From an uncultured Eubacteriales bacterium (GTDB lineage: Bacteria > Bacillota > Clostridia > Lachnospirales > Lachnospiraceae): a stretch of 64,000 nt of DNA. Both the position numbers and the translations under genes were made by a program. Below the pieces are notes generated by a model. It saw nothing but the letters and a program-made list of their open reading frames with translations, did no database searches and was not told the DNA's origin. The stretch lies in the NCBI GenBank assembly GCA_900314885.1, contig OMWY01000003.1, forward strand, positions 1 to 64,000, in the 5' to 3' direction. The first letter of the stretch is position 1, and each line of letters starts with the position of its first letter. Shown in pieces: positions 2,753 to 34,655 of this stretch.

Positions 2753-2781
2753 ACTATAACACAATAGAAATAGAAAGTCAA
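2753..2781 (-). promoter_or_regulatory. Sigma-70 type promoter of the thi operon
   Basis: Minus strand: -35 TTGACT (2781-2776), 17-nt spacer, -10 TATAGT (2758-2753). It places the transcription start about 30 nt before the TPP aptamer. Confidence 0.8.
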
Positions 2782-2802
2782 GATATAAATAATATTCTTA
2801 TT

Positions 2803-2852
2803 AGCCTCCCTCTTGAGGGAGGTGTCACGACTTAGTCGTGACAGAAGGAGTA
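2803..2852. repeat. Short palindromic repeat element (CTCCCTC family), copy 1
   Basis: Two adjacent hairpins: GCCTCCCTC/GAGGGAGGT (2804-2823) and GTCACGACT/AGTCGTGAC (2824-2842). The stop codon of the PHP phosphatase gene (2825-2827) lies inside the second palindrome, so the element supplies the last residues of that protein. The element at 63541-63616 shares the first hairpin and the TGTCA that follows it. Confidence 0.7.
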
Positions 2853-3619
2853 GTAAAAGGATTCCTCAATTCCACTGTTTCAAGCAGATGAAGTCCATAA
2901 GCCTTAACCATCTTTTCTCCCTTGGGAAGACTCACTTCATCATATACCACATCCGCGCTGTGAGCGTCAGACCCGAAAATCACATCACAGCCTTCCTCTC
3001 CCGCTATCTTAAAGAATCGAGGATTAGGATAATTTCTGTTTGAGCGAAGCCCCTGGAAATTTATTTCAAGTGGAATATGTAATTCACTTGCTTTTTTACA
3101 AAGCTTCCTCATCCAATAATCATATATCTTTTCATCCCCGACAAAATTCATAACATCAGGATGAGCAAAATAAGTGAAGCGTCCTGTCTCAAGGGCTTCC
3201 GCAGTCTGATAATAATATCTCTCAAGAGTTTTCGGATCATCAGTTTCCATAAAAGGACTCACATCTTTTATTTCGTTTCCGAGCCAGTGCTGGCCTAAAA
3301 TAAAATATTCGATAGGGAACCGGCTTTCGAACTTAATGAGTTCATCAAAATATGCCGGATAATATTCCACTTCAAGTCCAATATGAATTTCTATATCATC
3401 CTTATATTCTTCCCTTAATTTGCTGACCGTAGTTACATAATCCTCGAGCTGGTCCATTTTCATTTTAGAATGGTCAACAAAATCTCCCGGATATGGCTGT
3501 GGCGTATGGTCGGAAAATCCGAGTATCTTAAAATGTCCTATAGCCGCTTCTATATATTCACGCTCAGTCCCGGTTGCATGGTTACACCGCCAGGTATGAG
3601 TGTGGTAATTTGCTATCAT
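2825..3619 (-). CDS. PHP-domain phosphatase, histidinol-phosphatase (HisJ/HisK) family
   Basis: 264 residues. N-terminal MIANYHTHTWRCNHATG carries the PHP metal ligands (HTHTxRCNH), followed by GFSDHTPQPYPG, a GLEVEYYP block, the LGQHWLG motif, YFAHPDVMN, EINFQGLR and FGSDAHSA near the C-terminus. The order matches histidinol-phosphatases of the PHP type, which dephosphorylate L-histidinol phosphate with a polynuclear metal centre. No other his gene is nearby, so a different phosphoester substrate is possible. It lies 10 bp downstream of corA. The last residues come from a palindromic repeat. Confidence 0.85.
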   Translation of the reverse strand: MIANYHTHTWRCNHATGTEREYIEAAIGHFKILGFSDHTPQPYPGDFVDHSKMKMDQLEDYVTTVSKLREEYKDDIEIHIGLEVEYYPAYFDELIKFESRFPIEYFILGQHWLGNEIKDVSPFMETDDPKTLERYYYQTAEALETGRFTYFAHPDVMNFVGDEKIYDYWMRKLCKKASELHIPLEINFQGLRSNRNYPNPRFFKIAGEEGCDVIFGSDAHSADVVYDEVSLPKGEKMVKAYGLHLLETVELRNPFTTPSVTTKS

Positions 3620-6801: not shown

Positions 6802-9472
6802 CGGTATTCTCCGCGTTCACAGTCGTACCTGTTCCGTCATCAGAGTAGTCATTTGGAAGAGCGTCATCAGGACTTGTTGCCTCTTCAGGTACTTCTGATT
6901 CCGCTGCCGTTTCCGCGTCATGAACCTTGCAGGTATCATTCTTCGCGTCACCGGAAATTATATAAGGAGTGTCCTTAGTCTTATAAGTTCTGACAACTTC
7001 CTTGCCTTTTGAATCCTTCTGGACTATCTTCTCTTCCTTGACCAGATAAACCTTCTCACTTACCTGATCCTCCGGGCAATATTTGGTCGCGATCTTGCCG
7101 GAAGCCTTGCATATTTTCACTTTTACGTGACAGGTACAGGTCTCCGTAGGCACACTTCCCTTAGCGAAATATTCCTTCTTCGCGCAAGATCCTCCCTCAG
7201 CCTTATCGCAAAGGCCTGATACCGCAAGCTTACCGCATTTAGTACATATCGTAGCGGTAGTTATCGATGAAGGTCTTACAAATGACGCATCCTTAAGTTT
7301 CTTCTTCACAATAATCTGGTCCATAATATTTTTCCAGATAGGAAGATGGTACTGTGAAAAGTTCGACTGGTTCTTATTATTGTCGTATCCGGCCCATACA
7401 GTACAGGTATAATATGGAGTAAATCCGGAAATCCAGATATCGTTATATTCTGTACTTGAACCCGTCTTTGCCGCCTGACCCATGGCTGTATCGGCAAGAG
7501 CAGCCCTGGTACCGGTGGCGCCTGAAGCCGTAAGCACATCATGCATGGCATCAGTAAGAAGGAAGGATGTGGAATCCTTCATAACCTGTCTTACTACAGG
7601 CTTATTTTCAAGAATAACATTTCCATCGTGGTCGAGTACCTTGCTGTAAAATGACGGTGACGTATATATGCCCTGATTTGCTATGGCAGAGTAAGCCGCA
7701 GTAACCTCAAGGTTGCTGACACCAAGCGAGAGACCACCTAAAGCAAGGGCAAGATTAGCGTCATCTTCGGTTATTGTCGTAAAGCCTAAGCTGTCAAGGT
7801 AAGCAAGCGCAGGCTGGAGCCCAACATCCTCAAGGGTTTTGACCGTTACGATATTCATAGACCTGTAAATTCCGCGACGGTAAGTCGAGAGTCCCTCATA
7901 GGAATCCCCCCACCAGTTATGGACCTCCTTGTCACTGTTAGGATAATAGTATACTCCGTCATCCTGTACGCTTGCGAGAGTATCTCCATGCATATCGAGA
8001 GCGGGAAGATAGGTTGACAGAACCTTAAAGAGTGACCCGGGTTGTCTCGTTGAATCGGTAGCCCTGTTAAGAGTAAGATTCCCGGCCTTCTTGCCGCGTC
8101 CTCCGACAATCGCAACTACAGCGCCGGTTGTCGGATCCATAACGGTAACCGATACCTGAGGCTCAATTGTATATGTAGCCTTCTCACCCAATATCTCGTC
8201 ATCAGGGCCGACAACCTTAGCCTTAAACTTATCTATATAAGGCTTAGCGTCCTTCTTCTCGGTAAAGAGCATATCCTCAAGACCAAACATCTGCTTAATA
8301 TGGCCCTCGGAATAATTTGTGGTTTTGCCGTCCTTATCTTTTACTGAGAGCGCGTAGGTAAGCTGCCACCTCTCAGGGACATTCGCGTAGTAGGTCTCAT
8401 CCTTTACTGTCTTATTACAGATACTCTGAATAGTAGGGTCCTGATAAGTATAAATAGAGAGACCACCTGAATTAAGCAGGTTATATGCCTGGGTTGTCGA
8501 ATACCCTTTTTTCGCGACAAGGTCATTTACTACCTGCTCAATTGTCGCGTCAACGTAATATGAGTAAACGTTAGAGCTGCTGTTAGTTATATCTGTATTT
8601 ACAGCCTGAATTCTCGCGTAAACGTCATCTGCCATAGCCTCATTATACTCATCCTCGCTGATATAGCCCTGTTCGAGCATTTTTTTAAGAATTTCATTTC
8701 TACGCGCAGCGTTGGTCTCAGGGTTGGTAATAGGGTTGTTGGCAGTAGGATTCTTCGTGATTCCCGCTATAACCGCGGCTTCTGAAATGGTAAGTTCACT
8801 TACATCCTTGCCAAAGTATCTCTGCGAAGCCGTCTGCACGCCGAGAGTATTCTGACCCAGATTAATAGTATTCAGGTAGTACTCAAGTATCTGATCCTTT
8901 GAATAAATGCCCTCAAGCTTGATAGCGAGGTACTGCTCCTGGATTTTACGTTCTACCTTAGCAAGGGTAGTCGACTCCTCGCCTCCTTCAAAAACCTGAT
9001 TCTTGAGGAGCTGCTGGGTAATAGTGGAAGCACCCTGCGCATTGTCGCCGCCGCTCGCGAGTATTGTAAGTCCGGCCCTGAAAATGCCCCTCACATCAAT
9101 GCCGCCATGCTCATAAAAACGCTCATCCTCTATCGCTATAAAGGCCTTCTGAACACAATCCGGAATCTGGTCGAGTGTCTTATAGACCCTGTTGGCTCCG
9201 GCCCCGACTACGGTGTTCATTTTTTTACCCTTAACGTTATAGATGGTCGTCTGAAAGCCTGTTGGGACAACATTTATGGAGTTGATGTCAGGAGACCTGT
9301 CAAGAATCCCCTTCGCTGCTCCATATACAGCGTACGCCCCACACACAAAGAAAGCGACGATAAAAACAAGCAGGAGTCTCACAAGCCAAACCGCCGCTTT
9401 ACTTGATATCTTAGTCGGTATCGAGCGATAGCGTCTCCGCCTCGCTATAACCTTTTCTTTTCCGTAATTCAT
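6791..9472 (-). CDS. Class A penicillin-binding protein (PBP1A-type glycosyltransferase/transpeptidase)
   Basis: 893 residues. Cytoplasmic Arg-rich N-terminus, one membrane anchor (about 28-52), GT51 domain with EDERFYEHGG and GASTITQQLLKNQ, then a transpeptidase domain with all three motifs: SLFK (SxxK) after STRQPG, SMN (SxN) and KTGSS (KTG). The C-terminal 150 residues hold Cys pairs (CTKCG, CTCHVK, KYCPED) and an acidic Thr/Asp tail; paired Cys tails are common in clostridial PBP1. It polymerises and cross-links peptidoglycan outside the membrane. The ATG overlaps the lysR stop (ATGA), so the regulator and PBP are co-transcribed. Confidence 0.95.
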   Translation of the reverse strand: MNYGKEKVIARRRRYRSIPTKISSKAAVWLVRLLLVFIVAFFVCGAYAVYGAAKGILDRSPDINSINVVPTGFQTTIYNVKGKKMNTVVGAGANRVYKTLDQIPDCVQKAFIAIEDERFYEHGGIDVRGIFRAGLTILASGGDNAQGASTITQQLLKNQVFEGGEESTTLAKVERKIQEQYLAIKLEGIYSKDQILEYYLNTINLGQNTLGVQTASQRYFGKDVSELTISEAAVIAGITKNPTANNPITNPETNAARRNEILKKMLEQGYISEDEYNEAMADDVYARIQAVNTDITNSSSNVYSYYVDATIEQVVNDLVAKKGYSTTQAYNLLNSGGLSIYTYQDPTIQSICNKTVKDETYYANVPERWQLTYALSVKDKDGKTTNYSEGHIKQMFGLEDMLFTEKKDAKPYIDKFKAKVVGPDDEILGEKATYTIEPQVSVTVMDPTTGAVVAIVGGRGKKAGNLTLNRATDSTRQPGSLFKVLSTYLPALDMHGDTLASVQDDGVYYYPNSDKEVHNWWGDSYEGLSTYRRGIYRSMNIVTVKTLEDVGLQPALAYLDSLGFTTITEDDANLALALGGLSLGVSNLEVTAAYSAIANQGIYTSPSFYSKVLDHDGNVILENKPVVRQVMKDSTSFLLTDAMHDVLTASGATGTRAALADTAMGQAAKTGSSTEYNDIWISGFTPYYTCTVWAGYDNNKNQSNFSQYHLPIWKNIMDQIIVKKKLKDASFVRPSSITTATICTKCGKLAVSGLCDKAEGGSCAKKEYFAKGSVPTETCTCHVKVKICKASGKIATKYCPEDQVSEKVYLVKEEKIVQKDSKGKEVVRTYKTKDTPYIISGDAKNDTCKVHDAETAAESEVPEEATSPDDALPNDYSDDGTGTTVNAENTDGQ

Positions 9473-18908: not shown

Positions 18909-19046
18909 CGATTTCTTATCCTTTTACATATCTGTTCATCAGAAAAGAAACCTGGCACATAGCTATGTCCTCCTTTTTTTATCTTTTAATTAATTCCAAA
19001 ATTCCGCCGTTCCATCCAACGGTCGATAGTTTCTGAATTTATATTC

Positions 19047-19232
19047 TTATATAATATTACTCTTTCCACCAGCGGAATTGCAAATAGCGGTTTCTGCTGT
19101 TTTACTAAAAAATTGATATCCCGACTCACTGTCTTCTGTGATAATATGGTCAGGATTTTCTGCTACGTAAGTATTTTCCGGATATATTTCATACATCTCA
19201 TTATAAACTTCAATATTATAAATGGCCTTCAT
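19047..19232 (-). pseudogene. Remnant of the P-loop/Toprim-like ATPase (second copy of the 32.5-kb module)
   Basis: Reads MK then AIYNIEV...HIITEDSESGYQFF...NSAGGKSNII. It aligns to residues 128-197 of the intact ATPase at 32504-33496 (AIYEIV...HIITEDSNSGYQFY...SANGNTNII). The Walker A half (about residues 3-127) is gone, in frame, with the start codon and MK kept. Shortly downstream another frame carries a short basic C-terminal tail. Clear homology, clearly non-functional as an ATPase. Confidence 0.75.
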
Positions 19233-19266
19233 ACTATCGCCTCAAAAATTCTCCTTTTAAAACCGT

Positions 19267-19426
19267 CTACATCAACTCATCCATATTTGTAACAACCTGC
19301 TTATTATTTTCTATAATAATAGAAAAATTATCACATTCTCCAAAGTCCATCATATATCCCAATCTTACAAATATATCCTTGCTTTCTGAGATTTTTAGCA
19401 ACCACTTAGCATAATTATTACCATCC
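19267..19426 (-). pseudogene. Remnant of the DUF4869 gene (second copy of the 32.5-kb module)
   Basis: Minus-strand translation gives DGNNYAKWLLKISESKDI...LGYMMDFGECDNFSIIIEN and a TAG stop at 19267. It aligns to residues 90-140 of the intact DUF4869 protein (GDNCAKWVLKIAEQKDL...HIMHFEGNFEIKIMN). Only the C-terminal third survives. It precedes the ATPase remnant in the same order as the intact module. Confidence 0.7.
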
Positions 19427-19440
19427 TAACATTCTATCAA

Positions 19441-27900: not shown

Positions 27901-29464
27901 CTACGATGCAAACTGACTTAAGTACAGCTGCTCATACTTGCCGTGCCGGGCCATAAGCTCATCGTGGTTTCCGGCTTCTTTGATGTCTCCGTTTTCCATA
28001 TAAAGGATCATGTCCGCATCCCGGATGGTGGAAAGGCGGTGAGCGATTACAAAGCTTGTCCGGCCTTTCATCAGTTTTGCCATTGCATCCTGAATCTTCT
28101 GTTCCGTATAGGTGTCCACGTTGCTGGTGGCCTCATCGAGAATCATGATCTCGGGGTCACAGGCCATGGCGCGGGCAATCGCCAGACGCTGCCGCTGACC
28201 GCCGGACAGGTTCGTTCCGCCCTGAGCGATATGCTCATGGTATCTGTCTGTTTTCTTTTCAATGAATTCGTCCGCGCAGGCGATCTCAGCTGCCCGTTTC
28301 CAGTCTTCTTCCTGTCCGGATTCATCTCCGAAATTCAGGTTCGAGGCGATGTCACCTGTAAAAAGGACATTTTTCTGAGGCACATAGCCGATACGCCTTC
28401 TGAGGTCGGAAAGGCGCCACTTCCTCACATCCACGCCGTCCACCAGGATAGGCAAACGTGACGTCCCGGAATTCAATGCTGCCTTTTTCTGTTCCCACTG
28501 CCTCCTCGCCGTCCTTCATGGAGTTCTCTGTTTCGAGCACTTCCCGGATCCGGCCCGCACAGGCATAGGCATTGGGGAACATCATGATGACAGCTGCCAG
28601 AAGAATTACGGACATCAGAATCATGCTGATATACTGGCTGTTCGCCACCAGGGCGCCGACTTCCATCTCCCCGATGCCTACGTAATAGGAACCAAGGCCC
28701 ATGACCGCTGCCGTTGTCACTCCGAAGATGACCTGGATCACCGGCATGAGGGCTCCGGTCAGGCGCCCGGACTTCATCATTACTTTTGTATATTCCTGAT
28801 TCTCATCCCGGAAGCGGTCCATCTCTGTCTGCTGCCGGTTGAAGGCACGTATGACGCGCACACCCTCAAGCGTCTCCAGGAATAGGCTGTTCATGCGGTC
28901 CATCTTTTTTCTCATGGATACAGAGTAGCGGGCAGCCGCCAGAATAATGACGGCCGCGCTGATGAGAAGGACCGGAATTGCCACATTCAGGACCGAGCTG
29001 ACTTTGCCGCCGGTTGCTGCAGAAAGCACCATGCCTGCTATCGCCATCAGAGGGGCCATCACGCCCATGCGGAGAAGCAAAGTCAGGAAAGACTGCACAT
29101 TCGTGACATCCGAGGTACTTCTGGCAACCAGGGAAGCCGTCCCAAACCTGTCCATGTCCGCAGCCGAAAGATCCTGCACCTTGTGAAAGATTTCCTTCCG
29201 AAGACCGGCCGCAAAGCCTGTGGATATTTTTGCGGAAAGCGCTGTTGTAACAATGTTGGCCACACAGGTAATCACTGCCATAACTGCCATGATGATGGCT
29301 ATGGTAATGATGTAGCTCCTGCTTTCCTCTGCGATTCCCTTGTCAATCATTGTGGCGAGCAGAGTCGGCAGCATCATTTCCGCAACTGTTCCGATCATCA
29401 TCAGGACAAGCAGCCCGGCCAGATATTTTTTATTGATCTTCACGCATGAAAATAGCGTCCTCAT
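27901..29464 (-). pseudogene. ABC exporter (permease-ATPase half-transporter) lacking Walker A through an internal deletion
   Basis: From 29464: six-helix exporter domain, 1-310, and the start of the ATPase (GSIEFRDVTFAYP). The frame then breaks. From about 28476 the other frame continues ILVDGVDVRKWRLSDLRRRIGYVPQKN, LSGGQRQRLAIARA, MILDEATSNVD and IAHRLST. Roughly 55-60 residues with the Walker A P-loop are missing. The join TATCCTGGTGG fits both expected flanks (Y-P-G and I-L-V), consistent with deletion between short direct repeats. Divergent from a TetR gene that presumably regulated it. Confidence 0.85.
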
Positions 29465-30465: not shown

Positions 30466-31500
30466 TTAGTAAAGCACCCGGTAAATAGTTGAAATTGGCA
30501 AGCCGACAACATTGTTATAGTCGCCTCTGATTTCCTTCACAAGGACAGCTCCCTTTCCCTGTATGCCATAGGAGCCGGCTTTATCGAATGGTTCTCCTGT
30601 TTCAATATATGCCTGAATGCCTTGCTCGGATAGCGGATAGAATGTAACATCTGTTGAAACTGATAATGTCGTTCTATAGAGTATTTTTCCTTTATATGTA
30701 CGTATGATGCTGACACCGGTATATACCTGATGGGTATTGCCAGAAAGGAGTGTCAGCATTTTTTCTGCCATTTTTTTATCCTTTGGTTTTCCTAGAATTT
30801 TCCCCTCACAGGACACAGCTGTATCTGCTCCAAGAATCCAATCATTTTGATGTCTCTCAATAACAGAGGATGCCTTTCTGAAAGAAAGCTCCTCTACATA
30901 CTGATCCGGTATTGTCTCAGAAGTGAATTCATCCACATCAGACGGATCAAGAGAAAACTCAATACCGATCTGCGCTAAAAGCTCTCTTCGTCTTGGCGAG
31001 CCAGAGGCAAGTACAAGATGATTTTTAAAGGTTAATCGATCAATGAGCGCTGTGCATCCCTTCACAATATCCTGGTAAGCTGTTTCAAAATCTCCCGTAT
31101 ACCATGGATCTGATACGTCTCTGGGCGTATCTGCAAAGTCCAGTAATAGCCACATTTTATGATCCGGATCACCGCCTGCAATATTCTCCATTCTTCGGAG
31201 ATTCAATGCGTCCATCCCAATCAGGAGATCATAATACCGGTAATCTTCCTTCGTCATAAGCCGTGCACGTTTTCCTTCGCAGCTGATTCCATGCTCTAAA
31301 AGCTTTGCCTTAGCAGGAGGATATACCAGGTTTCCAACCCCTCTGTAAATTTCTTCCGTTGAAACTGCCGCAGATGCTACCTCATAGCGATCCTTTAATC
31401 CATGCTTTTCTGCATAATCGCGAAAGAAAAATTCCGCGATTGGTGATCTGCAAATATTGCCGTGGCACACAAAAAGTATCTTTATAGGCTCTTTCGTCGT
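30466..31500 (-). CDS. Low-molecular-weight protein tyrosine phosphatase fused to a Maf nucleotide pyrophosphatase; start codon apparently ACG
   Basis: 344 residues if read from 31500. Domain 1 (1-150): KILFVCHGNICRSP (LMW-PTP CX5R P-loop) and DPWYTGDFETAYQDI (DPW/Y general acid region). Domain 2 (155-344): LVLASGSPRRRELLAQIGI, ILGADTAVSCEGKILGKPKD, YTGVSIIRT, AGSYGIQGKGA, the Maf pattern. The Shine-Dalgarno AGGAGG stands 6 nt before ACG-ACG-AAA-GAG; a T-to-C change could have turned ATG into ACG. No in-frame ATG is near. The same frame continues upstream into an aldose-epimerase remnant, where a GTG at 31647 is the nearest formal start. Expression is therefore uncertain. Confidence 0.75.
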   Translation of the reverse strand, partial: TTKEPIKILFVCHGNICRSPIAEFFFRDYAEKHGLKDRYEVASAAVSTEEIYRGVGNLVYPPAKAKLLEHGISCEGKRARLMTKEDYRYYDLLIGMDALNLRRMENIAGGDPDHKMWLLLDFADTPRDVSDPWYTGDFETAYQDIVKGCTALIDRLTFKNHLVLASGSPRRRELLAQIGIEFSLDPSDVDEFTSETIPDQYVEELSFRKASSVIERHQNDWILGADTAVSCEGKILGKPKDKKMAEKMLTLLSGNTHQVYTGVSIIRTYKGKILYRTTLSVSTDVTFYPLSEQGIQAYIETGEPFDKAGSYGIQGKGAVLVKEIRGDYNNVVGLPISTIYRVLY

Positions 31501-31888
31501 GTCACACCTCCTCTCATCATTTGTATGAAAATTTACAAAACACCCGGTACGTCGGCACTCCCCGCCTGTAGTGCTTATGGTCAGAGGGCACATGAACGCC
31601 GGATGCGCTCCAATCATGAACGGCATGCACTCGTCTTCCGTCGTCACACGCCAAACGACCTTTACCGCATTTCATTCCAGAATATAACCGATCTGCAGAT
31701 GGAAATGATAAGGATATTTCTGCAATGTTTCCTCAGAGTAGTCGAGGCGGAACCAAAGCCCGTCTGAACGTCCTTCAAAGATAAAATCCATATCATGGGC
31801 AAAACCGTGCTGGTCCATTTCATATTCCTTCCCGTCATTCCGGTATCGGCCTCCCGATACAGCACCTACGAATGGGAAGAGAACCGGA
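31501..31888 (-). pseudogene. Aldose 1-epimerase family protein, middle segment
   Basis: Reads PVLFPFVGAVSGGRYRNDGKEYEM, QHGFAHDMDFIFEGRSDGLWFRLDY, SEETLQKYPYHFHLQIGYILE, then a TGA in place of the expected Trp, then NAVKVVWRVTTEDECMPFMIGAHPAF. It is a near copy of the N-terminal half at 34344-34655 plus the next segment that is deleted there. Both gene ends are missing; its 5' side is repeat R1 and its 3' side runs in frame into the LMW-PTP::Maf gene. Confidence 0.8.
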
Positions 31889-32069: not shown

Positions 32070-32498
32070 CTAGTCCGACTCGTCCATCTGCCACATCATG
32101 GCAAAGAAGGACTGCACGTCGGATGTCAGTTTTTTCGGCTTTTCCTGCATTCCCCTCTTGTACCACTCGCTCATGAGGCCGAAAAGGAAGTTGGCCCAGG
32201 CGATCTTCATATAGGCCGTGATATTTTCATCCGCCTCGTCATAGCCAAGCATGGAGATGATGAGGTCCAGAAGAAGCTTCTCCTGGCCGGAGGCAAAAAG
32301 CACATCCAGAAGCTTTCTGTTCTTCCAGAAGTACTGCAGCAGGGCTTCTTTGATATACTCTTCCGTCTTTGCCATTTTTTCCTCAAGAATAATTTCACTT
32401 CCACTCGCCCGGGCCGGAGCACTTCCTGAAAACCCGGGGAAGAATTCTCTTCTAAGCATCCAGCATGCTTGGGACATTGTAGTTCGGTAACCATTCAT
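32070..32498 (-). pseudogene. TetR-family regulator, C-terminal remnant
   Basis: From about residue 40 (EEKMAKTEEYIKEALLQYFWKNRKLLDVLFASGQEKLLLDLIISML) to FAMMWQMDESD it is a TetR C-terminal ligand-binding domain. The N-terminal HTH is replaced by unrelated sequence (MNGYRTTMSQACW...). 5 bp downstream of the ATPase stop, but there is no sign that it belongs to that module. Confidence 0.65.
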
Positions 32499-32503
32499 TC
32501 CAT

Positions 32504-33496
32504 TTATTTTCTTCGCTCCACAGCTCTTTTTCTTATCGGCTCCGGCATTACATCTATCACCTTTTTTATGTTTTTATCCTGAAGATAAAACGCATTAAGA
32601 ACTGTCTTGCTATATTTCGATATACCATCGGACAATCGAATAAGTAAATCAGTAAAATATCTCTCCCAGCTTATGTATTCACTGCATTCTATATAATTGT
32701 AAGGAGCCCTGAGAATATCATTCAGTTCAGCTGATGACACTACATGAGCTGAAAGCAAAATATACTCAAATGATTCCGGCATCCAGAAAGCAATTCTATG
32801 GTTCCTGACATCATCAGAATATGCCATGCAATCCTCAACCATAGCACCAAATGCTGCCCCGTCAGAAATAACAAGTGTGTCACCTTGTATCTCTTTGAGC
32901 CTTGATATTATATTAGTGTTACCGTTTGCAGAAATAACCTGACTGTCACTGAATAAATGAAGATAGAATTGATACCCTGAATTACTGTCTTCAGTTATAA
33001 TATGTTCCATCCTGTTACCGGATATATCCGGATAATTGCTGTACAATTCACGCAATTCATGGAAACTCTCCTTAACATCAGGATGCTGGCTTCCTGATAC
33101 TATTTCATATATTGCATGAACACTGTACGGCAGTACCTTTATCGGCGATCTGTTTACTATGACAAAATAATTATCAGATGTACCTACATATTCAGCAAAA
33201 TCTTTACTAAATACAAAATTATTGTTCTCTTCGATAAAAACTACGTTATTATGTAGAGGTGTCAAAATGTCTTCCCAACTCCTCCCTATTTCTCCTCGAA
33301 GATAAACAAAATATGGAGCATCAGCATAAACAGAAAATCCCGATTCACGCCCGCTTAACAAATATTCATACATCATTCTGAGAAGTGTTGTTTTGCCGGT
33401 ACCACTGTCACCCTTTATGACCGAAATATTTCTTGTAATATCAAACGCAAACACAGTTCTCTTGCTTCGCACTTCAAAATGGTATTTACCCTTCAT
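32504..33496 (-). CDS. P-loop ATPase with Toprim-like second half (module with DUF4869)
   Basis: 330 residues, soluble. Walker A GDSGTGKTT (29-37), an acidic hydrophobic strand VVFIEE (85-90) as possible Walker B, and YFVIVNRS (110-117). No ABC signature LSGGQ. Residues 164-220 (HIITEDSNSGYQF, then SANGNTNII, then LVISDGAAFG) follow the spacing of a Toprim fold (acidic strand, Gly-rich turn, Asp-bearing strand) as in OLD/GajA-type nucleases; this is pattern inference, and the usual DxD is not intact. The start overlaps the DUF4869 stop by 11 bp. Function unknown. Confidence 0.8.
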   Translation of the reverse strand: MKGKYHFEVRSKRTVFAFDITRNISVIKGDSGTGKTTLLRMMYEYLLSGRESGFSVYADAPYFVYLRGEIGRSWEDILTPLHNNVVFIEENNNFVFSKDFAEYVGTSDNYFVIVNRSPIKVLPYSVHAIYEIVSGSQHPDVKESFHELRELYSNYPDISGNRMEHIITEDSNSGYQFYLHLFSDSQVISANGNTNIISRLKEIQGDTLVISDGAAFGAMVEDCMAYSDDVRNHRIAFWMPESFEYILLSAHVVSSAELNDILRAPYNYIECSEYISWERYFTDLLIRLSDGISKYSKTVLNAFYLQDKNIKKVIDVMPEPIRKRAVERRK

Positions 33497-33938
33497 TTAC
33501 AAGTGCCTCCGCTTCAAGAAGTCCTTCAACATATTCCGCAGGATTATGAACGATCTTTCCGGTATTCATAATCTTAATTTCAAAGTTGCCTTCGAAGTGC
33601 ATGATATGCTGCAGGTACACAGTCAGGTCTTTCTGCTCTGCAATCTTTAATACCCATTTAGCACAGTTGTCTCCGCAATTGGACATATTGTATGTATATG
33701 AATCATCCTTAAGCATCAGTATCAGGACCTTAACGCCTCCTGATAATTCTCTGGGAGTAATAGCTCCAAGGACAGGGCTTTCAATGACATGTGGGCTTAC
33801 TACGTTTGAATGGTCCACGTCAAGAATCATCTTTTTAACCAAATCATCCTCCAGCCACTCATCCTCATAGACATTGTCAAAATAAGCAGGAGCATCGGTC
33901 ATATATTCTGTTCCACCATAATACCAAATCTTCAGCAC
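33486..33938 (-). CDS. DUF4869-like protein (module with P-loop ATPase)
   Basis: 150 residues from a GTG start at 33938. Acidic, soluble, begins MLKIWYYGGTEY. Conserved-looking blocks: YFDNVYEDEWLEDDLVKKMI.DVD, VIESPVLGAITPRELSGGVK, and the Cys-bearing SNCGDNCAKWVLKIAEQKDL. I recall this as the DUF4869 family, which has no known function and is commonly followed by a small P-loop protein. It overlaps the 45-aa gene upstream by 7 bp and the ATPase by 11 bp, so the three products are probably made in fixed ratio. Confidence 0.8.
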   Translation of the reverse strand: MLKIWYYGGTEYMTDAPAYFDNVYEDEWLEDDLVKKMILDVDHSNVVSPHVIESPVLGAITPRELSGGVKVLILMLKDDSYTYNMSNCGDNCAKWVLKIAEQKDLTVYLQHIMHFEGNFEIKIMNTGKIVHNPAEYVEGLLEAEALVNEG

Positions 33939-34069
33939 TTAACTACCTCGCATAAACCAAATTGAATATTTTTCCGGAGAATAGGGTCATCGCTATTCAT
34001 GGCCATGATCTTGTAATATTCCATGTTCATTTGTTTGCGCTTGATATCATCGATATTTGACTTTTTCAT
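33932..34069 (-). CDS. 45-residue small protein, first gene of the DUF4869/ATPase module
   Basis: The ATG at 34067-34069 has GAGAGGT about 8 nt upstream. It encodes MKKSNIDDIKRKQMNMEYYKIMAMNSDDP...FGLCEVVKC, then TGA at 33932-33934, which overlaps the GTG of the DUF4869 gene. Basic N-terminal helix, no membrane segment. The tight overlap and good ribosome site support a real gene. Function unknown. Confidence 0.65.
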   Translation of the reverse strand: MKKSNIDDIKRKQMNMEYYKIMAMNSDDPILRKNIQFGLCEVVKC

Positions 34070-34116
34070 AAACATATACCTCTCAGAATTCCTCTTATCC
34101 TATATTTCCCACTAAA

Positions 34117-34655
34117 TCATGTCTCTATGGTAATGGAAAAACTCCGTTCAAACAATTCGTCCTTTCTGACCAATTGCTCATATTCCCGTTCGGCGAGACT
34201 GCCACAAAACCCGACTCTGTCAGTTCGGCCATACCATGGCTCAAGGCAAACAAAAGGTACATCACCCGCCGGAGACCATATACCAAAAAGCGGAGCATCA
34301 AAGCTTATAGTGAGAAATGGCTGCTCCCCTTCATCCTCCAGTGTCAATTCGTGCAGCTTATTTCCTCAGAATAGTCAAGGCGGAACCAAAGCCCGTCTGA
34401 ACGTCCTTCAAAGATAAAATCCATATCACGGGCAAAACCGTGCTGGCCCATTTCATATTCCTTCCCGTCAGTCCGATATCGGCCTCCCGACACAGCACCT
34501 ACGAATGGGAAGAGAACCGGTGAATGCCGCTTCCAGTAAGCTTCACCTGACCAGATATACTCCGCGCCGGTCGACTTGTTTATCAGGTGACAGAGCTCAG
34601 CTCCATGCTCGGCAACGGAAATCTTTAGTTTCTCATTTTCAAGAATATGTTCCAT
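34117..34655 (-). pseudogene. Aldose 1-epimerase family gene with internal deletion
   Basis: First frame (34655-34344): MEHILENEKLKISVAEHGAELCHLINK...PVLFPFVGAVSGGRY...LWFRLDYSEE, then the frame breaks. Second frame (34347-34117): LTLEDEGEQPFLTISFDAP...FVCLEPWYGRTD...SFSITIET, the family C-terminus. The middle third with the catalytic His is lost. The deleted portion partly survives as the separate copy at 31501-31888, so at least two gene copies once existed here. The ATG at 34655 has a normal upstream region. Confidence 0.85.

Follow-up and report, generated by a model that had tools for sequence, protein, structure and literature searches.

What do the three short genes at positions 32504-34069 of the window (the whole stretch of 64,000 nucleotides that was analysed) encode, and do they belong together? 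The sequence-only reading regarded them as a three-gene module made up of a 45-residue protein, a DUF4869 protein and a P-loop ATPase with a Toprim-like half. Re-derivation of the coordinates gave the same three open reading frames, all on the minus strand, and both overlaps that had been described. The gene referred to here as A (32504-33496) encodes a protein of 330 residues, in which a small P-loop ATPase (residues ~1-150) is fused to a half (~160-330) resembling Toprim and a protein called T below. The gene referred to as D (33486-33938, GTG start) encodes the DUF4869 protein of 150 residues, which resembles an ABC head without Walker A, and overlaps A by 11 bp (33486-33496). The third ORF (33932-34069) overlaps D by 7 bp (33932-33938). 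It has 45 residues when read from its second ATG (34069) and 47 codons (33932-34075) when the first start is used.

The proposal of a three-gene module was only partly borne out. D and A are a recurrent pair in many genomes, whereas the 45-residue ORF had no relative near other D-A copies, at other places of the genome it comes from or in 200 family genomes. Since no counterpart exists in these places, this ORF was rejected as a component; it is a local ORF, and the conserved unit is D together with A. A second, decayed copy, which had also been claimed, is real. It lies on the minus strand at about 19038-19434 and contains stops, with remnants of A at ~19038-19232 and of D at ~19255-19434. 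In addition, another contig of the same genome carries a full D-A pair (locus L020), and the genes just upstream of an orphan D (L080) encode an HpaII-type restriction enzyme and a cytosine methylase.

The neighbourhood of DUF4869 was surveyed in a sample of 200 family genomes, of which the named relatives are Lachnospiraceae. Profile searches found D in 39 of the 200 genomes and A in 29. The survey confirmed the suggested co-occurrence with the ATPase, D and A being a nearly obligate adjacent pair, while co-occurrence with the 45-residue gene was not found. D nearly always comes first, with a short gap or overlap, and A occasionally does; each A of at least 300 residues in these genomes adjoins an intact D. 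The distance matrices of D and A were correlated with r = 0.897 (n = 29 pairs; permutation maximum 0.53), which points to co-evolution of the two proteins. The pair is spread across the Lachnospiraceae and also occurs in Oscillospiraceae and Collinsella. Genome samples of the phylum and class gave no D outside its own family; these samples were too narrow, as plasmid records later gave D-A pairs of Oscillospiraceae and Coriobacteriaceae. The pair also occurs on plasmids of Agathobacter rectalis and the actinomycete Collinsella aerofaciens, on a conjugative plasmid of Ruminococcus albus 7, and on a few phage-labelled scaffolds of human faecal origin that carry no annotation. Among the viral contigs of IMG/VR, A was found at one locus only and T was not found. 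D-A is a compact pair of genes that is often transferred among gut bacteria. One genome (G111, loci L081-L093) contains thirteen DUF4869 matches, belonging to several subfamilies and located at different places.

A second group of D relatives is accompanied by two separate partners, a P-loop protein of ~140 residues and a protein T, and D is always present. The genes of these split forms are joined by stop-start overlaps, in the order T-D-A (L129, L135, L136, L138) or D-A-T (L086, L087, L089, L132). In profile comparisons, the N-terminal half of A matched the small ATPase with an E-value of 4.9e-13, and its C-terminal half matched T of the T-D-A type with an E-value of 1.5e-8 over 146 columns. 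T of the D-A-T type matched T of the T-D-A type (E = 1.7e-6) and showed no direct profile match to DUF4435 or to the C-terminal half of A. On these matches, the A protein of the window is a fusion of ATPase and T, and the real trio is D, the small ATPase and T. That A is naturally split into two genes is an independent reason to regard its second half as a separate domain. T of the T-D-A type (L129, L135, L136, L138, L090) also has a conserved C-terminal cysteine cluster, GECW..CC.., possibly a metal site.

D is a member of PF16163 (E = 8e-52; 174.9 bits against a gathering cut-off of 28.9). No function is recorded for DUF4869 and no mention of it was found in the literature searched. The sequence-only reading had missed that DUF4869 has a near-invariant motif resembling the ABC signature, the motif that A lacks. 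The most conserved residues across highly divergent members are F20, LSxGxK (65-70) and GxN (89-91). In the window, the LSGGVK of D (33729-33746, minus strand) lies at the start of a predicted helix. No Pfam-level link connects DUF4869 with ABC proteins. A profile of 73 D sequences nevertheless matched ABC ATPases from the same loci with an E-value of 6.5e-5 and a score of 36.6, a score reached by none of 60 column shuffles (maximum 16.7). The alignment runs in register from signature on signature, via the Walker B position and the H-loop, to the next strands. Both D subfamilies, compared separately, ranked an ABC set first, with E-values of 3e-4 and 9e-3. D thus has the signature at a helix start and the order of Walker B strand and H-loop found in ABC heads, while the acidic residues of Walker B are lost and no P-loop or Walker A occurs in the chain.

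The structure model agreed with the profiles. In the AlphaFold model of D (pLDDT 83, pTM 0.73), a helix begins with LSGG. In a Foldseek search of the PDB, 42 of the 50 matches listed were to Csn2 or to heads of ABC or SMC ATPases; leaving out Csn2, 34 remain. None was individually significant (best E 0.1), and the highest query TM was 0.43, to the AriA-AriB complex. Profile and structure evidence, which differ in kind, are therefore in agreement on the likeness to ABC proteins. As a part of the whole best explanation given below, and with the same slightly better than even chance, D would be a degenerate ABC-type ATPase head that has lost Walker A and kept the LSxGxK signature.

The N-terminal half of A lacks what D retains. 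As had been claimed, A contains the Walker A sequence GDSGTGKTT and no ABC signature. Walker A (GDSGTGKT, residues 29-36) is encoded at 33389-33412 on the minus strand; G29, S31, G34 and K35 are invariant in 28 aligned A homologues, and the signature is absent from all 28. A also has a strand resembling Walker B with an acidic pair (residues 85-90); R116, which comes after the next strand, is invariant. Searches of the three window proteins against Pfam, NCBIfam, PADLOC and PHROGs gave only DUF4869 and generic P-loop matches. The best Pfam match of A was AAA_22 with 21.9 bits, under the cut-off. Weak matches to the ABC-type defence ATPases LmuB, AriA, PtuA and mad8 recurred. A PDB sequence search with the A, D and T profiles gave only P-loops and chance matches. 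Since A has no signature, and D has LSxGxK and a likeness to ABC proteins, we infer that D supplies the signature in trans to the ATP site of A, the two forming a split ABC ATPase. To our knowledge, a functional ABC ATP site divided over two polypeptides, one of them without Walker A, would be unusual; the literature searched held no precedent for it.

These observations lead to the following explanation, to which we assign a probability of roughly 0.52. The module, an ATPase combined with a nuclease, would have reached the locus by horizontal transfer. In it, D and A would enclose ATP in a head-to-tail arrangement, with D donating the signature and A donating Walker A and Walker B, and A would be fused to T, a metal nuclease resembling DUF4435 and Toprim. 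The composite ATP site would hold the nuclease in an inactive state. A trigger, for which a phage product is the most likely candidate, would then release or activate the nuclease, and the cell would be halted as in PARIS. Comparison supports this explanation through the composition and linkage of D, A and T, the co-evolution, the ABC likeness of D, the missing signature of A and the homology of fused and split T. The D-A contact, the Toprim chemistry, the inhibitory role of D, the defence role, the nucleic-acid target, the trigger and the benefit are elements that we infer. The pair appears to encode a nuclease driven by ATP, with an ATP site to which two proteins contribute, and the module is probably a phage-defence or toxin-like system. 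The wider statement, that a Walker-A-less ABC half, DUF4869, completes the ATP site of a separate signature-less P-loop protein, and that the obligate split ABC ATPase so formed controls a Toprim-like nuclease in a three-component defence system of gut Clostridia with interchangeable fused and split genes, has close to an even chance of being correct.

The strings HIITED, SANGN and VISDG, on which the suggestion of a Toprim fold was based, are all present in the second half of A. The proposed core (residues ~160-250; 32747-33019, minus strand) contains invariant acidic residues and four predicted strands alternating with helices. Invariant in 28 homologues are E169-D170, D212, G217 and E241-S-F-E244. 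In the AlphaFold model of A (pLDDT 72, linker below 50), four strand-helix units are followed by helices only, as a helical tail. T and the C-terminal half of A both matched DUF4435 (eight sequences) with E-values of ~2e-3, above all 60 shuffles each, in a test so insensitive that the known Toprim pair of DUF4435 and OLD reached only 0.09. The segments line up as VED...GGK...LDRD...IENYL in DUF4435 of L200, IED...NNS...FDNSFD...CFEYLL in T and TED...NGN...SDG...SFEYIL in A. The strict DxD after strand 3 is not kept; the position reads DGA in type I A, DxxxDN in T of the T-D-A type and DxxPNN in T of the D-A-T type. Pfam gave no DUF4435 row for either the C-terminal half of A or T, and no OLD-like TOPRIM (PF20469).

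The alternative is that a regulatory domain, receiver-like or otherwise Rossmannoid, forms this half and that D-A is an ATP-dependent switch or regulator. Foldseek of the whole A chain returned weak receiver matches and no Toprim structure, the C-terminal half of A matched a receiver set with an E-value of 3.8e-3, and the missing DxD points in the same direction. Receivers have five strands and share the strand order 2-1-3-4 with Toprim. The 2-1-3-4 order of Toprim has been described previously (PMC7049728). Since the strand order is shared, the receiver matches do not exclude Toprim. Only four strands are predicted in A before the helices, T of the T-D-A type matched DUF4435 (1.8e-3) better than receivers (0.15), and the glutamate after strand 4 is invariant in A and aligned with a conserved glutamate of DUF4435. 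A regulatory domain in place of a nuclease is thus quite unlikely. The beta-alpha order and E169 after strand 1 fit Toprim, and a Toprim-like second half is the better reading and a likely one, although it is not proven. The ATPase-plus-Toprim plan gains from the natural split of A and from the matches to T and, weakly, to DUF4435, whereas the fold itself was not recovered.

The pattern of gene loss bears on two further alternatives. Among the fused-type loci from an unbiased D search, both genes were intact in 22. In 16 only D was intact, A being broken or absent; in four both genes were broken, and no locus had an intact A with a broken D. A is 2.2 times longer than D, so that by length alone about one-third of the single losses would be expected in D; the chance of 0 of 16 is ~0.0025 if the loci are independent, which they are not fully. 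This asymmetry is as expected if A is harmful without D. It favours a toxin-antitoxin pair, in which D would be an antitoxin that binds the toxin A directly, no ATP site would be shared and the pair would be kept mainly by addiction. The retention of LSxGxK in orphan D genes and the many copies per genome, up to the thirteen noted above in one genome, are consistent with such a pair. It should be noted that a D-based search would miss copies without D, yet an A-based search found none. A plain antitoxin, however, would leave unexplained the ABC-like architecture of D and the conservation of its motif, as well as its stay with two further proteins in the split forms. A mere toxin-antitoxin pair is unlikely, though the two readings overlap and D could be both. 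At one locus (L096, 5277-6894), a transposase-like ORF of 390 residues lies between D and a broken A.

The insertion sites suggest how the copies arrive. The window module is bracketed by a 160-bp direct repeat. Its left copy (31728-31887) is a piece of an aldose-epimerase gene, its right copy (34361-34520; Pfam Aldose_epim) is 96% identical, and the epimerase gene is not intact. Five of 71 copies, the window included, lie between direct repeats of local host sequence with 22 to 52 exact bases; none of 200 mismatched controls exceeded 15. The other four are L004 (7489-7545 / 8983-9039), L129 (4927-5038 / 6837-6946, the 3' end of the upstream gene), L136 (5141-5180 / 6935-6973) and L105 (966-1212 / 2776-3026). 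In four of the five, nothing but D-A or T-D-A lies between the repeats, and the unit therefore enters genomes on its own. Terminal transposon motifs shared by the copies were not found, only local duplications of varying length; entry is an insertion that duplicates target sequence of varying length. Such flanking duplications, the many broken copies and neighbours that differ at almost every site would suit a selfish or neutral cassette that brings no host benefit, inserts illegitimately and decays steadily. The unit, however, has no transposase or recombinase, D stays intact with its motif in copies without A, and D and A co-evolve over deep divergence. A cassette of this kind is very unlikely.

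The split ABC ATPase with a Toprim-like nuclease was finally compared with known systems. PARIS stops growth upon phage infection (PMC9122126, PMC12409363). It likewise combines an ATPase (the ABC ATPase AriA) with a DUF4435-like nuclease (AriB, a DUF4435/Toprim tRNase), fused or separate; its AriA-AriB complex is the match of D with the best TM, and the segment pattern in the C-terminal half of A resembles DUF4435. The effector of PARIS is sequestered by its ATPase until a phage trigger frees it. In the present module, unlike PARIS, the ATPase is spread over two proteins, DUF4869 is an extra subunit, and the distribution covers Lachnospiraceae and a few relatives. A gave no AAA_15 or AAA_21 row in Pfam and no DUF4435 over the published cut-offs (PMC9122126). 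OLD and Gabija GajA, in which ABC ATPase and Toprim form one chain, share with type I A the order of ATPase and then Toprim-like half and the helical tail after the core. A differs in having no inserted dimerisation region, no ABC signature, no match to OLD-like TOPRIM (PF20469) and 330 residues against about 525-650. Because the defining tests failed, we do not assign the module to PARIS or OLD. Two unlike heads with complementary motifs also occur in heterodimeric ABC ATPases that have one degenerate site; here one partner apparently lacks Walker A and the other the signature, so that only one composite site is possible.

Among 169 Pfam families of neighbours, none occurred in more than 4 of 114 proteins. 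In a few copies the adjoining genes are for restriction-modification (HpaII type, and around L118 type I hsdS/hsdR), for a TOTE primase (L135) or for BrxL-type proteins, while the neighbours are mostly ordinary and all different; a defence-island setting in general was not found. Since the neighbourhoods are mostly ordinary, the defence role rests on analogy, by which PARIS/OLD-like defence or abortive infection would be the most likely function. If correct, the explanation would add to the ATPase-Toprim defence systems (OLD, Gabija, PARIS) a form missed by profile-based defence finders. It also gives DUF4869 a first testable role, and joins into one system two proteins that are annotated just as a DUF and as hypothetical (e.g. 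WP_012741428.1 with WP_055237862.1 in Agathobacter rectalis).

Three further features of the window are worth recording. Just downstream of A, a 142-residue ORF (32070-32498, minus strand) resembles the C-terminal portion of TetR-type regulators but gave no Pfam match. An ABC exporter gene (27901-29464, minus strand) is apparently split by a frameshift, the transmembrane part lying at 28352-29464 and the ATP-binding part, in another frame, at 27901-28476. Finally, in one ORF (30466-31647, minus strand) a low-molecular-weight phosphotyrosine phosphatase (residues 57-201) is followed by a fused Maf-like protein (210-392); the two parts score well over their Pfam cut-offs.
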